Part shown: piece after piece, positions 45,073 through 51,152 of the stretch
Position numbering within the stretch: position 1 is the stretch's first letter
Layout of the letters: the number at the start of each line of letters is the position of its first letter
NCBI RefSeq assembly: GCF_023515955.1
Contig: NZ_CP097322.1
Span: 3,123,501 to 3,187,500 of the forward strand
Direction: 5' to 3'
Length of the DNA: 64,000 bases
DNA from: Streptomyces sp. RerS4
Lineage (GTDB): Bacteria; Actinomycetota; Actinomycetes; Streptomycetales; Streptomycetaceae
Translations under genes and position numbers: made by a program
The notes under the pieces: model-generated
Told to the model about the DNA's origin: nothing
The model's database searches: none
The model's input: the letters and a program-made list of their open reading frames with translations, nothing else

Positions 45073-46935
45073 TCAAGGGCGCGGCGGAGTGGGGCGCTCG
45101 GGGGTGCCCAGGGTGGCGTTGACCAGCTCCTCCTGGCAGGGCGTACCCCGGGGGAGCTGGTACTTCGCGGAGACCCGGTACTCGCCGGGCGCCGGGGCCA
45201 GCAGCTCCGTCCAGACGTCGCCGGAGGCGTCGGGGGCCGCCTTGAAGAGGCACCCGGACGTATTCGCGTAGTCCTTCGGCACCGCCGCCGGCCCGCGCGC
45301 CTTCGACGCGAACGTCTCCTGCGGGGGCGGTACGGCCTTCCCCGCCGCGTCCACCAGCCCCAGCCACGGCGAGTGCGGGATCCGCACGAGCACCCGCCCG
45401 GGTTCGCGTACGTCGATGACCAGCCGGTCGGCGCCGGCCCGCACCACGCTCGCGGGCCCGGACACCAGGTTCGTCGGGTCGACCACCCGGAACAGCTGCC
45501 AGTTCTCGTCGCCCCACACCTGCTGGAGGTACGGGAGCCCCGCGCGCACGAGCTTCGCCTCCGACACGCCGCCCGAGTCGGGTTTGTCGGCAGGGAGCAC
45601 GACGTAGTGCACGGCCCAGCGCTCCAGCCAGGCCCGGTAGCTGTCCTCGGTGAGGGTGTCGTCGTAGAAGAGCGGGTTGCGTTCCAGGTCGGCCTGGCGG
45701 TTCCAGCCGCGCGCGAGGTTGACGTACGCCGGGAAGGCCGAGGATTCGCGGTGGCTGCTGGCCGGGACCACCTCGACCCGACCCCGGTCGGCGCCCGCCT
45801 TCTTCAGCTGGTCGATCAGCGGGGCCAGCTCGCGGTTCCAGGCGGCCACGGGGGTGGTGCGCACGATGTCGGTGATGCTGTTGGTGGTGATCCAGGCGGT
45901 CAGGCCGACGCACGCGATCACCAGCGCGTGCCGCCGCCGCGTGCGCGGGGCCGCGTACGGCAGGGCGGCGAAGAGGGCCGCGCCGCCGAAGAGCATGACG
46001 AGCCGGGTGACGTTCGAGCCGACCTGGGAGTCGATCGCCCAGGTCAGGAAGACGCCGAGGGTGTACACGACGGCGGCGACGCGGACCGTGCGCCAGGCCT
46101 TCGGCACGAGGAAGGCGACGGCCAGCCCGAAGACGAACGGCAGCCAGGCCGAGCCCAGCTTCATCGGCTGGGTTCCCGAGAAGGGGAACAGCCAGGCCGA
46201 CAGGCCGACGACGGCCGCCGGCGGCAGCCCCAGGACGTACGCCCCCGGCCGCCGCCCGCTCAGGAACAGCGCGGCGGCGACCACCCCGAGGAAGAGCCCC
46301 GCGACGGGGCTCGCGGCGGTGGCCAGGGCGGCGAGCGGCACGGCGACGGTCGCCTTGGCCCAGCGGTGCCGGAACCGGCGGCGCGGCCAACAGAAGACGG
46401 CGGCGACGGCGCCGAGCGCGAACAGCACGCCGAGGCCGAAGGTCACCCGGCCGGAGAGGGCGTTGCAGAACAGCCCGTAGACCCCGGCCAGGGCCGGCCA
46501 CAGGGGACGCCGGACGGCGCCGCGGCAGCGGGTGAGGATCAGCGCGAGGAGGGCGGCCGAGCCGGTGCCGGCGATCATCATCGTGGTCCGTACGCCCAGC
46601 ATGTGCATGAGGTACGGGGAGATCACGCTGTACGAGACGGGGTGCATGCCCCCGTACCAGGCGAGGTTGTACGCGGTGTCGGGGTGCCGGCCGACGAACT
46701 CGGCCCACGCGTCCTGGGCGGCGAGGTCGCCGCCGCTGTTGGCGAAGGCGTAGAACCAGACGACGTGCAGGACGGCGGCGAGGGCGGTCGCGACGGCGAC
46801 GGGGTGCCGGTGCGCGAGGGCGAGCGTCCGGGTGGTGGGTGATCCCGCGCCGGCCTCAGGGGCCTCGGGGGCGGCAGCGCGGTCCGACGGCCGGTCGCCG
46901 TTGTCCTGGTGGTGCTGCCGCTCAGCTGTGGTCAC
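45073..46935 (-). CDS. large polytopic membrane protein, glycosyltransferase-like layout
   Basis: A 620-residue protein starting at a GTG (46935). After a 40-residue polar lead there are about 11 membrane helices (residues 45-380). A large extracytoplasmic C-terminal domain follows (380-620), with AWNRELAPLIDQLKKAGADR, LFYDDTLTEDSYRAWLERWA and VDVREPGRVLVRIPHSPWLG-like strands. A conserved early loop YGGMHPVSYSVISPYLMHML follows the first helix. This plan resembles GT-C-fold transferases and the putative glycosyl or arabinosyl transferases of actinomycetes; no DxD/ExD catalytic pair is certain. The gene may act on cell-wall or surface glycan. Function is only inferred. Confidence 0.75.
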   Translation of the reverse strand: MTTAERQHHQDNGDRPSDRAAAPEAPEAGAGSPTTRTLALAHRHPVAVATALAAVLHVVWFYAFANSGGDLAAQDAWAEFVGRHPDTAYNLAWYGGMHPVSYSVISPYLMHMLGVRTTMMIAGTGSAALLALILTRCRGAVRRPLWPALAGVYGLFCNALSGRVTFGLGVLFALGAVAAVFCWPRRRFRHRWAKATVAVPLAALATAASPVAGLFLGVVAAALFLSGRRPGAYVLGLPPAAVVGLSAWLFPFSGTQPMKLGSAWLPFVFGLAVAFLVPKAWRTVRVAAVVYTLGVFLTWAIDSQVGSNVTRLVMLFGGAALFAALPYAAPRTRRRHALVIACVGLTAWITTNSITDIVRTTPVAAWNRELAPLIDQLKKAGADRGRVEVVPASSHRESSAFPAYVNLARGWNRQADLERNPLFYDDTLTEDSYRAWLERWAVHYVVLPADKPDSGGVSEAKLVRAGLPYLQQVWGDENWQLFRVVDPTNLVSGPASVVRAGADRLVIDVREPGRVLVRIPHSPWLGLVDAAGKAVPPPQETFASKARGPAAVPKDYANTSGCLFKAAPDASGDVWTELLAPAPGEYRVSAKYQLPRGTPCQEELVNATLGTPERPTPPRP

Positions 46936-47055: not shown

Positions 47056-50000
47056 TCAGCCGATCCGGGTCAGCTTGCCGCCGATGCTCGGCGCGGACAG
47101 CTCGCCCTTGAGCGCCACGGGCACCTTCACCTGACTGGCGCCCTCGCCGACGGTCATCACGCCGACCTGCGTCCCGGCCTTGGCCGTCTCCGGGATCCGC
47201 GTACCGCCGTCACCCAGCTTGACCTGGACGGTCAGGGAGGGCCAACCGACCGCCTGGACGTCGGCGGTCGCGACGACCGGGGTGTGGCCACCGAGGCCGT
47301 CGTCGACGTAGCCGACGACCGCGCCCTTCTTGACGATCGGGGCGCCCTGGATCTCCTTCTGCGTGGCGATCAGCAGCGTCCGGCTCGCCGCGATGACGCT
47401 GTCGATGATCGGCGGCTTGTGCTGGCCGAGGACGGCGCCGACGATCAGCTGGTTGGTGTCGCCGACCTTCTTCTGCGCGGCGAAGAGGAGGTTTCCGCCG
47501 GCCTTGGTCGTCGTACCGGTCTTGATGCCGAGGGAGTCGTTGAACGGGACGAGACGGTTCCAGTTCGGCCAGTTCTTGCCCGAGGGGTCGACCCAGTTCG
47601 GCTTGCGGGTGATGTCCACCAGCGCGTCGATCTCGACGATCTTCAGGCCCAGCTTCACCTGGTCCTCGGCGGTGCTGACCGTGGTCGCGTCCAGGCCGGA
47701 GGGGTCGGTGTAGGTGGTGTTGGTCATGCCGAGTTCCTTGGCGGTGTCGTTCATCTTCTTGACGAACGCCTCCTGGGAACCGGAGTCCCACCGCGCGAGC
47801 AGCCGCGCGATGTTGTTGGCTGACGGGATCATGAGGGCGGCGACCGCGTCGTACTCCGAGATCTTGTCGCCCTCCTTGACGGTGTTGAGGGTCGACTCGT
47901 TGTCGGACTTGTCCTTCTGGCCCTCGATCTCGGCGGTCTTGTCGACGTCGATCATCGCGCCCTTCTCCCCCTTCTTGAAGGGGTGGTCGCGCAGGATGAT
48001 GTACGCCGTCATCGACTTCGTGACGCTCGCGATCGGCACCGGCTTCTGCTCGCCGGAGCTGCCGATCGTGCCGAGGCCGGCGGCGGCCATGGAGGCCTGC
48101 CCCTCGGTCGGCCAGGGCAGGTCCGGCTTGCCGCCGGGGAAGGCGTACGAGGACTGCGCGGTCAGCACGAGCTTCGGCGCGGGCAGCGGGCGCACCAGCT
48201 GTACGACGGCCAGCACGATCGCCAGGAGCAGCACGATCGGGGCGTAGATCTTGACCCGGCGCAGCGCGGTGCGCAGGGGTGTGGGCGGCGGGGGCGGGTT
48301 GTTGGTGAGGTCCGCCAGCATGTCGAGCGGCGGCCTGGGGGGCAGCGGCTGCTGGGTGGTGCGCTCGCTGGGGTCGATGCGGGGTGGGGCCGGGGCCGGG
48401 GCCGGGGCCGGTGTGGGCCTGGGTGCGGGCTTCGGCGGGGCCGACCTCTCCTCTTCCCCGCGCAGGGGTACGAAGGTGCTGGGGGTGCGCCCGCCCGGCT
48501 TGACGGCGCGGAACGCGGCGGTGCGCTCGCTGTCGGACTCCTCCGCCGACGCGGAACCGGAGGCGGGCTTCGGCGCCGGCTCGGCGGGCTTCGGAGGCTC
48601 CCCGTCCCGGGAAGCGGAACGCGCACTTTCGTCTCCGGCCGCTCCGGCGGCCCGCGGGTCGGCAGCCGCCCCGGGCTTGACCGTACGGAACACCGCCGTG
48701 CGCTCGCTGTCGGCGGCGGGCTTGGCGGGGTCGGCTGCGCCGGGCTTGTCGGCGCTCGGCGCGGCCGAAGCCGGCTTCGACGCGTCCGGCTTGGCGGCAG
48801 TCGACGCCGCCGAGGCCGGCTTGACCGCGCGGAAGACAGCCGTGCGCTCGCTGTCGGCCGACTGCTCCTCGCCTCCCGCCTCCGACGACGGCGAGTCGGC
48901 CGGTGCGGCCGCGCCCGGCTTCGCCGCACCGAACCCGGTCGTGCGCTCACCGTCGGCGGCCGGCTTCTCGGCGTCCGCAGCGGGCTTGGCGGCGCCGCGC
49001 GGATCGGCTGCGCCGGGCTTGTCACCGCTCGGCGTGGCCGAAGCCGGCTTCGACGCGTCGGGCTCGTCGGCGGTCGACGCCGAGGCGGGCTTGACCGCGC
49101 GGAAGACAGCCGTGCGCTCGCTGTCGGCCGACTGCTCCTCGCCTCCCGCCTCCGACGACGGCGAGTCGGCCGGTGCGGCCGCGCCCGGCTTCTTCCCGGC
49201 GTCCGCAGCGGGCTTGGCGGCGGCACGCGGATCGGCTGCGCCGGACTTGTCGGCGCTCGGCGTGGCCGAAGCCGGCTTCGACGCGTCGGGCTCGTCGGCG
49301 GTCGACGCCGAGGCGGGCTTGACCGCGCGGAAGACAGCCGTGCGCTCGCTGTCGGCCGACTGCTCCTCGCCTCCCGCCTCCGACGACGGCGAGTCGGCCG
49401 GTGCGGCCCCGCCCGGCTTCTTCCCGGCGTCCGCAGCGGGCTTGGAGGCGGCACGCGGATCGGCTGCGCCGGACTCGTCGCCGCTCGGCGCGGCCGGAGC
49501 GGACTTCGACGCGTCAAGCGCGTCCGGCTTGTCGGCACTCGACGAAGCCGGCTTCGACGCGTCCGGCTTGGCGGCGGTCGACGCCGCCGAGGCGGGCTTG
49601 ACCGCGCGGAAGACAGCCGTGCGTTCGCCGTCGGCGGCCGGCTTCTTACCGGCATCCGCCTCGGCGGGCGCGTCCGACTTGTCCGCGGTCCGGACAGCCG
49701 GGTCCGGCTTCTCCGCAGCCGCCGTCTCGGCAGCGGGCTTGGAGGCGGCAGGCGCGTCAGCCGCGTCCGCCTCGGCGGGTGCGTCCGGCTCGTCCGTGCT
49801 CCGGACGGCCGGCGTCGGCTTGATCGCGCGGAATGCCGTGGTGCGCTCGGGGTCGGTGGCTGCGGACGTGGCGGGCTTCGGGGAAGCGGAATCCTTCGGG
49901 TGCGACGGCGACCCGTTCGGTTCCGGGGTGGAAGCGGAATCCGGCGTACGCGGGTCCGGGCCTTCGGGCTGGCGGACCACCCGACCGGAGGACGACTCCG

Positions 50001-50205
50001 GGACGGTGCCGGCGTCCGGCTCCGCGTCGGAATCCGCGTCGGCTTCCGCTTCGGTCGTCGCCACCCAGGCCGCCACCGCTTCCTTCAGCGGGTCGCGGCG
50101 TCGGGGCGGCTGGAAGACCGAGAGCCTCGGGTCCTGTTCCGCGGAGGACTCCGTCGCCCCCGACGCTCCTTCATCTACCGACTTGTCGGGGGACTCGCCC
50201 GCCAC
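47056..50205 (-). CDS. D-alanyl-D-alanine carboxypeptidase with long repeat N-terminus
   Basis: A 1049-residue membrane-anchored penicillin-binding protein (S11 family). The C-terminal about 360 residues form the enzyme. SxxK appears in PIASVTKSMTAYIIL, SxN in LMIPSANNIARLLA and KTG in LGIKTGTTTKAGGN, followed by a beta-rich end domain. One membrane helix (IYAPIVLLLAIVLAVVQLV) near residue 670 separates it from a huge cytoplasmic N-terminal region of Ala/Pro/Lys/Asp-rich repeats. That region has at least eight copies of a short motif like SERTAVFRAVKPAS. The enzyme trims the terminal D-Ala of peptidoglycan stem peptides. GTG start at 50205 follows GAGGAGGAACG. S11 enzymes normally have about 400 residues. 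Confidence 0.9.
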   Translation of the reverse strand: MAGESPDKSVDEGASGATESSAEQDPRLSVFQPPRRRDPLKEAVAAWVATTEAEADADSDAEPDAGTVPESSSGRVVRQPEGPDPRTPDSASTPEPNGSPSHPKDSASPKPATSAATDPERTTAFRAIKPTPAVRSTDEPDAPAEADAADAPAASKPAAETAAAEKPDPAVRTADKSDAPAEADAGKKPAADGERTAVFRAVKPASAASTAAKPDASKPASSSADKPDALDASKSAPAAPSGDESGAADPRAASKPAADAGKKPGGAAPADSPSSEAGGEEQSADSERTAVFRAVKPASASTADEPDASKPASATPSADKSGAADPRAAAKPAADAGKKPGAAAPADSPSSEAGGEEQSADSERTAVFRAVKPASASTADEPDASKPASATPSGDKPGAADPRGAAKPAADAEKPAADGERTTGFGAAKPGAAAPADSPSSEAGGEEQSADSERTAVFRAVKPASAASTAAKPDASKPASAAPSADKPGAADPAKPAADSERTAVFRTVKPGAAADPRAAGAAGDESARSASRDGEPPKPAEPAPKPASGSASAEESDSERTAAFRAVKPGGRTPSTFVPLRGEEERSAPPKPAPRPTPAPAPAPAPPRIDPSERTTQQPLPPRPPLDMLADLTNNPPPPPTPLRTALRRVKIYAPIVLLLAIVLAVVQLVRPLPAPKLVLTAQSSYAFPGGKPDLPWPTEGQASMAAAGLGTIGSSGEQKPVPIASVTKSMTAYIILRDHPFKKGEKGAMIDVDKTAEIEGQKDKSDNESTLNTVKEGDKISEYDAVAALMIPSANNIARLLARWDSGSQEAFVKKMNDTAKELGMTNTTYTDPSGLDATTVSTAEDQVKLGLKIVEIDALVDITRKPNWVDPSGKNWPNWNRLVPFNDSLGIKTGTTTKAGGNLLFAAQKKVGDTNQLIVGAVLGQHKPPIIDSVIAASRTLLIATQKEIQGAPIVKKGAVVGYVDDGLGGHTPVVATADVQAVGWPSLTVQVKLGDGGTRIPETAKAGTQVGVMTVGEGASQVKVPVALKGELSAPSIGGKLTRIG
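48835..49450 (-). repeat. long near-identical direct repeats inside the carboxypeptidase gene
   Basis: Three copies of a segment of about 130-190 bp, recognisable by CGTGCGCTCGCTGTCGGCCG at 48841, 49111 and 49339. They encode ERTAVFRAVK plus the following SPSSEAGGEEQSADS block. The near-identity at DNA level points to recent duplication or gene conversion; unit spacing differs (270 and 228 nt) but keeps frame. Confidence 0.8.
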
Positions 50206-50390
50206 CGTTCCTCCTCGATCGCCGTCCGGTCACTGTCCGAACCGTCTAACAGTGTCCCGTCTAGGGGGCATCGCCCAACCGCTAGACGAGAACGACATAG
50301 CTGCCGGTTCCCCCACAAAGCGGCCAGGCACTCTCGACAGATGAATGTGAGAGGCGTCACCCTGTCACTCATCCACGCGGGGAGGCATGG

Positions 50391-51152
50391 ATGGGCAGGA
50401 GCCGCAGAACAATTCCGGAGGAGCTTCTGCTGCTCGCCTTGGACCCGGCCACGGGTACCACGGCGCAGCCGCAGTCGCTCGACCTCGGCCTGGCCGGGGC
50501 ACAGCTAGTGGAGCTGGCTCTGGCAGGACGGATAGCCCCTGACGGGGATCGTATCGCCGTGGTGATGCCACGGCCGACAGGAGATCCGACTTTGGACTCC
50601 GCACTGGAACTGCTGCGCAGGCGCGGCAGCCCGGTTCGGGCGGTCCACTGGATCGGCGGACCCCGACTGGGGCTCCGTCAGATCTACCTCGCGCACCTGG
50701 AGCGTTGCGGCATGGTCCATGCCGTCGCGGGCCAGATGTGCGGGGTGCTGCCGACGACTCGCTACCAGGCGACCGATACGGCGATCAGCCGGGAGATCCG
50801 TGCCCGGCTCGACAGTGCGATCCGCACCGGCGTACCGCCGGACCCGCGGACCGCGGCGCTCGCCGCCCTGGCCCACGCGGTCGGACTCGGCAAGCATCTG
50901 TACCCCGGCAATGAGGGGCGTTCGTCCAGGTCCCGGCTGCGGGACCTGATCCGGCACGACCCGATGGGCGGTCTCGTGGCGCACGCCGTCATGGACGTCC
51001 AGAACGGTGTGGCGGCGCAGCCCCGCCGCGACCGCGCCACGGCCCAGCCGCCGGCGCGGGCGACGGCGAGCAGCGGTGGCGGTGGCGGTGGCATCGGCGT
51101 TCCGATGCAGCCGCGTCGGACGGGTGCCATGGCCCGCGCCGCCGCGCACTGA
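50391..51152 (+). CDS. GPP34 family phosphoprotein (GOLPH3-like)
   Basis: A 253-residue protein beginning MGRSRRTIPEELLLLALDPA, the start of the GPP34 fold. LVELALAGRIAPDGDRIAVV, IRTGVPPDPRTAALAALAHA and LRDLIRHDPMGGLVAHAVMD match the helical core, while the last 45 residues are a disordered Gly/Arg/Ala tail. Eukaryotic GOLPH3 binds PI4P and Golgi glycosyltransferases; in actinomycetes these proteins are common but little studied. The ATG at 50391 follows GGGGAGGC. It is divergent from the carboxypeptidase; a strong hairpin ends it. Confidence 0.9.
   Translation: MGRSRRTIPEELLLLALDPATGTTAQPQSLDLGLAGAQLVELALAGRIAPDGDRIAVVMPRPTGDPTLDSALELLRRRGSPVRAVHWIGGPRLGLRQIYLAHLERCGMVHAVAGQMCGVLPTTRYQATDTAISREIRARLDSAIRTGVPPDPRTAALAALAHAVGLGKHLYPGNEGRSSRSRLRDLIRHDPMGGLVAHAVMDVQNGVAAQPRRDRATAQPPARATASSGGGGGGIGVPMQPRRTGAMARAAAH

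Follow-up and report, generated by a model that had tools for sequence, protein, structure and literature searches.

Gene locus and domain organization of the carboxypeptidase

We analyzed a stretch of 64,000 nucleotides from Streptomyces sp. RerS4 (contig NZ_CP097322.1, positions 3,123,501 to 3,187,500 of the forward strand; hereafter the window) and focused on a gene for a membrane-bound D,D-carboxypeptidase of the SCO4439 type, whose long N-terminal tail carries a repeated threonine motif. The conservation of this motif and its resemblance to protein-kinase target sites suggest, as far as sequence can tell, that wall trimming may be wired to the phosphorylation signalling of the cell. The gene is read on the minus strand from a GTG start codon at 50205 to the stop at 47056, and the encoded protein is composed, from the N- to the C-terminus, of a 649-amino-acid disordered tail, a single transmembrane helix and the enzyme domain. 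A preliminary description of this DNA had placed the gene correctly and left the strand unsaid; its tail of about 650 residues agreed with the 649 residues that precede RVKIY.

47056-50205, minus strand: whole gene, 1049-amino-acid type II membrane S11 D,D-carboxypeptidase of the SCO4439 type (open reading frame (ORF), Pfam, gene order and promoter)
48259-50205, minus strand: tail, residues 1-649, disordered and probably cytoplasmic (composition and predicted local distance difference test, pLDDT)
50056-50091, minus strand: modelled helix, residues 39-50, over LKEAVAAWVA (AlphaFold2; pattern A[VA][AS][AS]W[VL])
48193-48249, minus strand: transmembrane helix, approximately residues 653-671, with basic RRVK before the helix (most hydrophobic stretch and AlphaFold2 model)
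47443-48051, minus strand: Peptidase_S11 domain, residues 719-921, with SVTK at 727, SAN at 795 and KTG at 895 (Pfam PF00768)
50284-50311, minus strand: sigma-E type promoter, GGAAC-N18-CGTCT (intergenic sequence; similar sites at the loci of relatives)
50391-51152, plus strand: divergent neighbour, GPP34/GOLPH3-like protein of the SCO4440 type (GPP34 184.8 bits against a cut-off of 29.1)

The enzyme domain belongs to peptidase family S11, as evident from a PF00768 score of 118 bits against a cut-off of 27.6 and the presence of the SxxK, SxN and KTG motifs. The tail is rich in Ala, Pro, Ser, Asp, Glu and Lys and has a net charge of -23. In an AlphaFold2 model computed from 14 sequences (the window protein and 13 orthologues), residues 1-642 mostly had a pLDDT below 50 and revealed no structure except for the helix at residues 39-50, in a model that was weak as a whole (mean pLDDT 51, predicted template modelling score 0.47). 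The helix word A[VA][AS][AS]W[VL] was present in 49 of the 76 tails described below, and AVAAW-type words accounted for 49 of the 77 Trp residues across all tails. We infer that the tail lies inside the cell because of the substrate of the enzyme, the basic residues preceding the helix and the argument made for SCO4439 (PMC4751497).

The window gene is of the SCO4439 type, an assignment set by architecture, gene order and promoter. In SCO4439 of S. coelicolor, likewise an S11 D,D-carboxypeptidase, a single transmembrane region lies centrally and the long region N-terminal to it has been assigned to the cytosol (PMC4751497, PMC12402492); the gene adjoins a GOLPH3-like gene in the sco4439-sco4440 arrangement (PMC12402492) and is a sigma-E target, with a sigma-E site listed for sco4439 (PMC6767563). 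The window gene combines the same tail, central transmembrane helix and S11 domain with a divergent GPP34 gene and a sigma-E type promoter. The two proteins differ in how the tail has been described, as a putative transcriptional regulator in SCO4439 (PMC4751497) and with seven to eight ERTxxF repeats in the window protein; in the available text of that 2016 paper the words 'repeat' and 'phosphorylat' are absent.

A sigma-E type site was found at 59 of the 59 loci with a recognised start. A scan of the window for sigma-E sites with a spacing of 15-17 returned none, because the real spacing is 18. The GPP34 gene was divergently adjacent at 67 of 80 loci. The other 13 comprised five cut by a contig end, two from non-streptomycetes with short N-termini (L080 and L082) and six tailed copies whose retrieved flank lacked GPP34 (L065, L067, L069, L072, L073 and L081). 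In these six genomes, the best GPP34 gene lay elsewhere and was flanked divergently by another ORF with the same opening as this tail (VAGESP), the enzyme part of which falls beyond the stretch retrieved. At least L067, L069 and L073 had a different N-terminus, MNEKNS, and all six GPP34-remote copies had ERTSxF or a near form. GPP34 was present in all 10 genomes queried, including that of L080 with its short N-terminus, and the genome of the window organism contained three GPP34 genes in all, the two further ones being L145 and L146.

Downstream of the carboxypeptidase gene, positions 45073-46935 (minus strand) contained a 620-residue, membrane-protein-like ORF with no Pfam match up to an E-value of 1. 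An S11 paralogue elsewhere in the same genome (L002, G000:C1:751909-753150) was 49% identical and had a Pro/Ala-rich N-terminus without the motif.

Repeated threonine motif in the tail

ERT occurs at nine tail residues (120, 194, 287, 363, 420, 453, 501, 560 and 614). Seven of these (residues 120, 194, 287, 363, 453, 501 and 560) fit ERTxxFRxxK exactly and eight fit ERTxxF; the last is part of a separate conserved box.

49819-49848, minus strand: copy 1, ERTTAFRAIK, residue 120 (tail translation)
49597-49626, minus strand: copy 2, ERTAVFRAVK, residue 194 (tail translation, DNA-pattern search)
49318-49347, minus strand: copy 3, ERTAVFRAVK, residue 287 (tail translation, DNA-pattern search)
49090-49119, minus strand: copy 4, ERTAVFRAVK, residue 363 (tail translation, DNA-pattern search)
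48919-48948, minus strand: degenerate copy, ERTTGFGAAK, residue 420 (tail translation)
48820-48849, minus strand: copy 5, ERTAVFRAVK, residue 453 (tail translation, DNA-pattern search)
48676-48705, minus strand: copy 6, ERTAVFRTVK, residue 501 (tail translation, DNA-pattern search)
48499-48528, minus strand: copy 7, ERTAAFRAVK, residue 560 (tail translation, DNA-pattern search)
48337-48366, minus strand: separate conserved box, ERTTQQPLPP, residue 614 (tail comparison)
48964-49515, minus strand: near-identical DNA repeat, 228-base-pair unit, 2.4 copies, 95% matches (repeat search)

The count of at least eight copies in the preliminary description therefore stands only if the degenerate ERTTGFGAAK is included, as exact copies number seven. 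The near-identity of some repeats at the DNA level, which it had also claimed, was confirmed at 48964-49515, where the 2.4 copies of the 228-base-pair unit with 95% matches make this part of the array look like a recent tandem duplication. The number of repeats varies among species.

We compared 76 tails, namely that of the window protein and those of 75 loci, leaving out five further loci cut at a contig end; 13 of the 75 locus tails start at an upstream stop codon for want of a recognised start and may include untranslated residues, and the sequence of L062 contains N. At least one [DE]x(1,2)Txx[FLIM] site was present in 74 of the 76 tails, all 74 of them streptomycete, compared with approximately 0.4 per tail in shuffled sequences. 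Four sites were found in 30 tails, five in 13, three in 8 and six in 8; seven, eight and two sites occurred in 4 tails each and a single site in 3. Only the short N-termini of the non-streptomycete relatives L080 and L082 had none. A tail absent or random in orthologues, which the preliminary description had named among the signs that would refute its idea, was thus not what the comparison showed.

The preference for Thr was pronounced. With Φ standing for F, L, I or M, the pattern [DE]x(1,2)TxxΦ[KR] occurred 225 times in the 76 tails against a mean of 3.6 in 50 shuffles, and 120 times in the 46 less related tails against a mean of 2.1 and a maximum of 7 in 500 shuffles. The corresponding Ser pattern, [DE]x(1,2)SxxΦ[KR], occurred once in the 76 tails (4.8 expected from shuffles) and not at all in the 46 less related tails (2.7 expected). 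Three residues ahead of F, the tails had T at 284 of 414 positions and S at 7; directly before AVF[RK], T was found in 167 of 175 cases, with L in 7, F in 1 and S in none. Among 125 ERTAVF-type copies from 32 tails (window included), which comprised 99 distinct 30-nucleotide cores, the Thr position was left open in the search pattern and was nevertheless T in 125 of 125, encoded by ACG (59), ACC (54) and ACT (12). Because Thr was invariant despite varied synonymous codons and 99 distinct cores, the motif appears to be under purifying selection at the protein level. Its spelling differed between clades, being ERTAVFRAVK in the window and close relatives, DQPTAVFK and DQPTTMLK in others and ERTSxFV[AP]L[KR] in many; a TxxF core is common to the ERTAVFR, DQPTAVFK and ERTSxFV spellings.

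Where searched, the spelled motifs were nearly confined to this tail. In the genome of the window organism, an ERT[A/S]xF..x[LV] DNA pattern, which leaves Ser as AGY uncovered, gave six matches, all in this gene (reversed control 0). The pattern [DE][RTPS]T[AS]xF[..] gave 15 matches, six in this gene (control 2), and TAVF[KR..] gave 23, five in this gene (reversed control 7). Of the remaining 18 TAVF[KR..] matches, all but one plausible exception read as frames that were short, unrelated or antisense in appearance, and the idea that the motif is common to many proteins of this genome was rejected. The exception (L101/L134, G000:C1:4287985) is a single DTTAVFRQ look-alike in a 392-residue frame.

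Across the genus, DQPTAVF[KR] had 33 matches in 28 of 81 genomes (reversed-pattern control 0), and it was not found in the other 53, including that of the window. Thirty of the 33 places were read as loci and all 30 lay within this tail, some of these assignments resting on a single short word in frame. A DQPT pattern with looser residues gave six matches in six genomes, five in this tail and one elsewhere, with no match in the genome of the window or that of L046. ERTSxF[VIM] was less exclusive: it matched 89 times in 65 of the 81 genomes, against 6 matches of the reversed pattern, and was absent from the genome of the window. Of 30 loci taken from these, 29 were readable. A script placed 19 of them in this tail, and inspection by eye added L182 and L207 to give 21; in another 5 the match (ERTSHFM) sits where a different protein starts, and the remaining 3 were stray. 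In L183, L188, L194, L197 and L203, ERTSHFMAF opens another recurring protein, ahead of a hydrophobic stretch.

Candidate functions of the tail

Judging from the motif and its genomic setting, we consider it somewhat probable (roughly 55%) that Hanks-type Ser/Thr kinases phosphorylate the tail at multiple sites and that it docks phosphothreonine (pThr)-reading FHA proteins under envelope stress. Each TxxF[RK] motif would serve as one phospho-acceptor site for these kinases, the pThr motifs would dock one or more FHA-domain proteins, and the repetition would lend avidity, tying the carboxypeptidase to a phospho-scaffold in the cytoplasm in a graded and multivalent way. The attachment would be made during envelope stress, when sigma-E raises the synthesis of the carboxypeptidase. 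FhaA would be the likeliest reader by gene context, with GarA as an alternative. We infer phosphorylation and FHA binding from the consensus fit, the likeness to GarA, the cluster of FHA and kinase genes and the shared sigma-E regulon, and wall trimming may be affected.

The kinase consensus of M. tuberculosis, as quoted in PMC6888350, consists of acidic residues followed by T-x-(x/V)-large hydrophobic Φ-(P/R), and the enriched positions of PknA-dependent Thr sites include an acidic residue at -3, Pro at -1, Leu/Val at +3 and Lys/Arg at +4 (PMC7164672). Both descriptions are fitted by TAVFR and DQPTAVFK, with acidic residues before Thr, a large hydrophobic residue at +3 and P, R or K at +4. 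This combination was found around 247 of 2294 tail Thr residues versus 33 of 3505 tail Ser residues; in the outside domain, which served as a control, it was found around 13 of 2569 Thr and 26 of 1581 Ser residues. The consensus fit is thus characteristic of the tail. FHA domains generally recognise pThr rather than pSer, and the site before AVF[RK] is Thr rather than Ser, as described above. The GarA/OdhI peptide SDEVTVETTSVFRADFL carries a nearly identical core (PMC8546545), the structure of GarA with pThr22 has been solved (2kfu), and FHA domains select their ligands partly by the residue at pThr+3 (PMC5549992). The genome of the window organism encodes 11 FHA domains. FhaA lies next to a second FHA gene and shares one cluster with PP2C, RodA/FtsW, PbpA and a PASTA kinase. 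The kinase gene pkaA and sco4439 are both among the sigma-E targets whose conservation is predicted for 9 or more of 19 genomes (PMC6767563).

Several points weigh against a phosphorylated, FHA-docking tail. In truncation and complementation experiments in S. coelicolor, the tail was not needed for the spore phenotypes tested (PMC4751497). No phosphosite for this protein was found in the literature covered, supplementary tables being outside its scope, and the main text of the S. rimosus phosphoproteome, supplement excluded, lacks the word carboxypeptidase. The sole S. coelicolor motif reported, (pT)xE, is different (PMC6888350). The tails are related by descent, so the counts given above are not independent, and seven streptomycete tails have just one or two sites where chance gives approximately 0.4. 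The FVPLR site of the second box described below mostly lacks Thr at -3 in the clade of the window (.STFV is preceded by A in 17, G in 9, P in 4, T in 4 and S in 3). Finally, a general kinase or FHA site would require neither the length nor the exclusiveness of the spelled motif (TAVFKAVRP), which suggests a dedicated partner, possibly the GOLPH3-like protein. The FHA docking proposed in the preliminary description is accordingly supported in part. It gains from the Thr specificity, the fit to the actinobacterial kinase consensus, the GarA likeness and a genome that encodes two clustered FHA proteins, FhaA among them, together with PP2C and a PASTA kinase, and it loses from the dispensability of the tail for the published spore phenotypes.

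The tail contains a second conserved box.

48460-48480, minus strand: STFVPLR, residues 576-582 (tail comparison)

The pattern F[VI]xL was present in 72 of the 76 tails; its F and L are fixed by the search, so that only the open positions count as evidence, and these were Ser at F-2 in 71 of 72, Pro/Ala in 72 of 72 and Arg/Lys after L in 69 of 72. In the 46 less related tails, F[VI]xL[KR] occurred 40 times against 0.02 expected. Most of the clade of the window has lost the ERT ahead of the box and kept STFVPLR. The box resembles the tail motif recognized by yeast Vps74, (F/L)(L/I/V)xx(R/K). A conserved box that persists where ERT is lost means that two functions, the Thr sites and STFVPLR, may sit in the tail.

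It is possible, though doubtful, that the tail instead serves as a handle for the divergently encoded GOLPH3-like protein of the SCO4440 type, which would bind at the STFVPLR/FVALK box, at the FRxxK portion of the repeats or at the basic stretch beside the membrane, in the way that GOLPH3/Vps74 retains type II Golgi enzymes by their cytosolic tails. The adjacency of GPP34 at 67 of 80 loci, with five more cut by a contig end, and the retention of the F[VI]xL box where ERT is lost speak for such a contact, as does the suppression of a vesicle phenotype only on co-expression of sco4439 and sco4440 (PMC12402492). A pentameric Vps74 tail motif is mentioned, without its letters, in PMC3760917, and GOLPH3 clients carry L-x-x-R/K and membrane-proximal basic residues (PMC8421267). 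The basic LRTALRRVK at the membrane matches a type II client with basic residues, given the orientation proposed above; however, client tails are short, basic and free of acidic residues, acidic ones being poorly bound (PMC8421267), and the present tail has 649 residues and a charge of -23. The FVxL box, along with ERT or something close to it, persists in the six tailed copies without adjacent GPP34, a counterpoint limited by the GPP34 gene that those genomes have beside another VAGESP-type ORF. Moreover, sco4440 alone restored muropeptides (PMC12402492), so that SCO4440 action need not pass through the tail of the enzyme, and the near-absence of Ser in place of Thr is left unexplained. GPP34 as sole explanation is weakened by the six GPP34-remote tailed copies and the long acidic tail. 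A combined arrangement is rather unlikely in our estimate: wall trimming would be regulated through two grips on the tail, with kinases modifying and FHA proteins recognising a TxxF[RK] array that governs the place or the strength of the hold on the enzyme, and with the GOLPH3-like protein gripping STFVPLR and the basic stretch; if true, it would be a bacterial forerunner or analogue of tail-based Golgi enzyme sorting with phosphorylation as the switch.

The length of the spelled motif, approximately 10 residues, and the confinement of one spelling to this tail among the 30 places read would also fit a dedicated cytoplasmic partner that needs the unmodified Thr, such as a polar or cytoskeletal scaffold to which the tail is a multivalent tether. 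We regard this as unlikely: no partner was identified, some Ser would be expected to be tolerated at an unmodified hydroxyl site, and such a partner would have no need for acidic residues before Thr or a basic residue at +4. An inert low-complexity extension grown by repeat slippage, with the motif duplicated along, accounts for the recently duplicated look of the 228-base-pair array, the wide variation in tail length and the dispensability of the tail for spore phenotypes (PMC4751497). It is nonetheless improbable, as the motif holds with free synonymous change while the flanks diverge, differing spellings converge on TxxF and the Ser equivalent is depleted; chance or slippage alone was rejected by the shuffles, the Thr/Ser asymmetry and the synonymous variation. 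The published label of a transcriptional regulator domain derives from a conserved-domain match to PHA03307 (PMC4751497), and we give it almost no credence. The tail had no Pfam or NCBIfam match at an E-value of 0.001, NCBIfam returning only relatives below the cut-off, and the model is disordered there; no recognisable DNA-binding domain was found in the tail. PHA03307 is presumably a match to a low-complexity viral protein.

Relation to known systems and biological meaning

GarA/OdhI (ETTSVFRAD) shares an E-x-T-[AS]-V-F-R-A core with the repeats, and its Thr is phosphorylated by Ser/Thr protein kinases. The phosphorylated site is bound by the FHA domain of GarA itself in cis. GarA/OdhI is a soluble metabolic regulator with a single site, whereas several sites are found here on a membrane enzyme. 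Golgi type II enzymes and GOLPH3/Vps74 resemble the present pair in the type II enzyme, the GPP34 protein, the hydrophobic-plus-basic tail motif and the genetic link, and differ in that Golgi client tails are short and basic while this tail is long and acidic. Mycobacterial CwlM also controls wall synthesis via pThr in its C-terminal tail; in contrast to the protein described here, it is a cytoplasmic MurA activator and not a carboxypeptidase, and repeats are not mentioned for it in the available text (PMC4946905).

Among the open-access titles and abstracts covered (on SCO4439, on Streptomyces GOLPH3 and on phosphoproteome and FHA; subscription papers lay outside), none describes these repeats or binding of FHA or GOLPH3 proteins by the tail. 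Phospho-docking tails are known, but we know of no wall carboxypeptidase that carries a repeated one. PMC4751497 calls the tail a 'putative transcriptional regulatory domain' and speaks of its 'biological function, if any'; reading it as a phospho-array provides a testable function for a tail published in those terms. Because the repeat number varies by species, natural variants could be used to test multivalency. The finding also offers an entry to what the bacterial GOLPH3-like protein binds. If the kinase and FHA reading is right, the tail would be a repeated phospho-docking array on a penicillin-binding protein, and would connect envelope stress (sigma-E) with Ser/Thr kinases and with the trimming of peptidoglycan in the principal genus of antibiotic producers.

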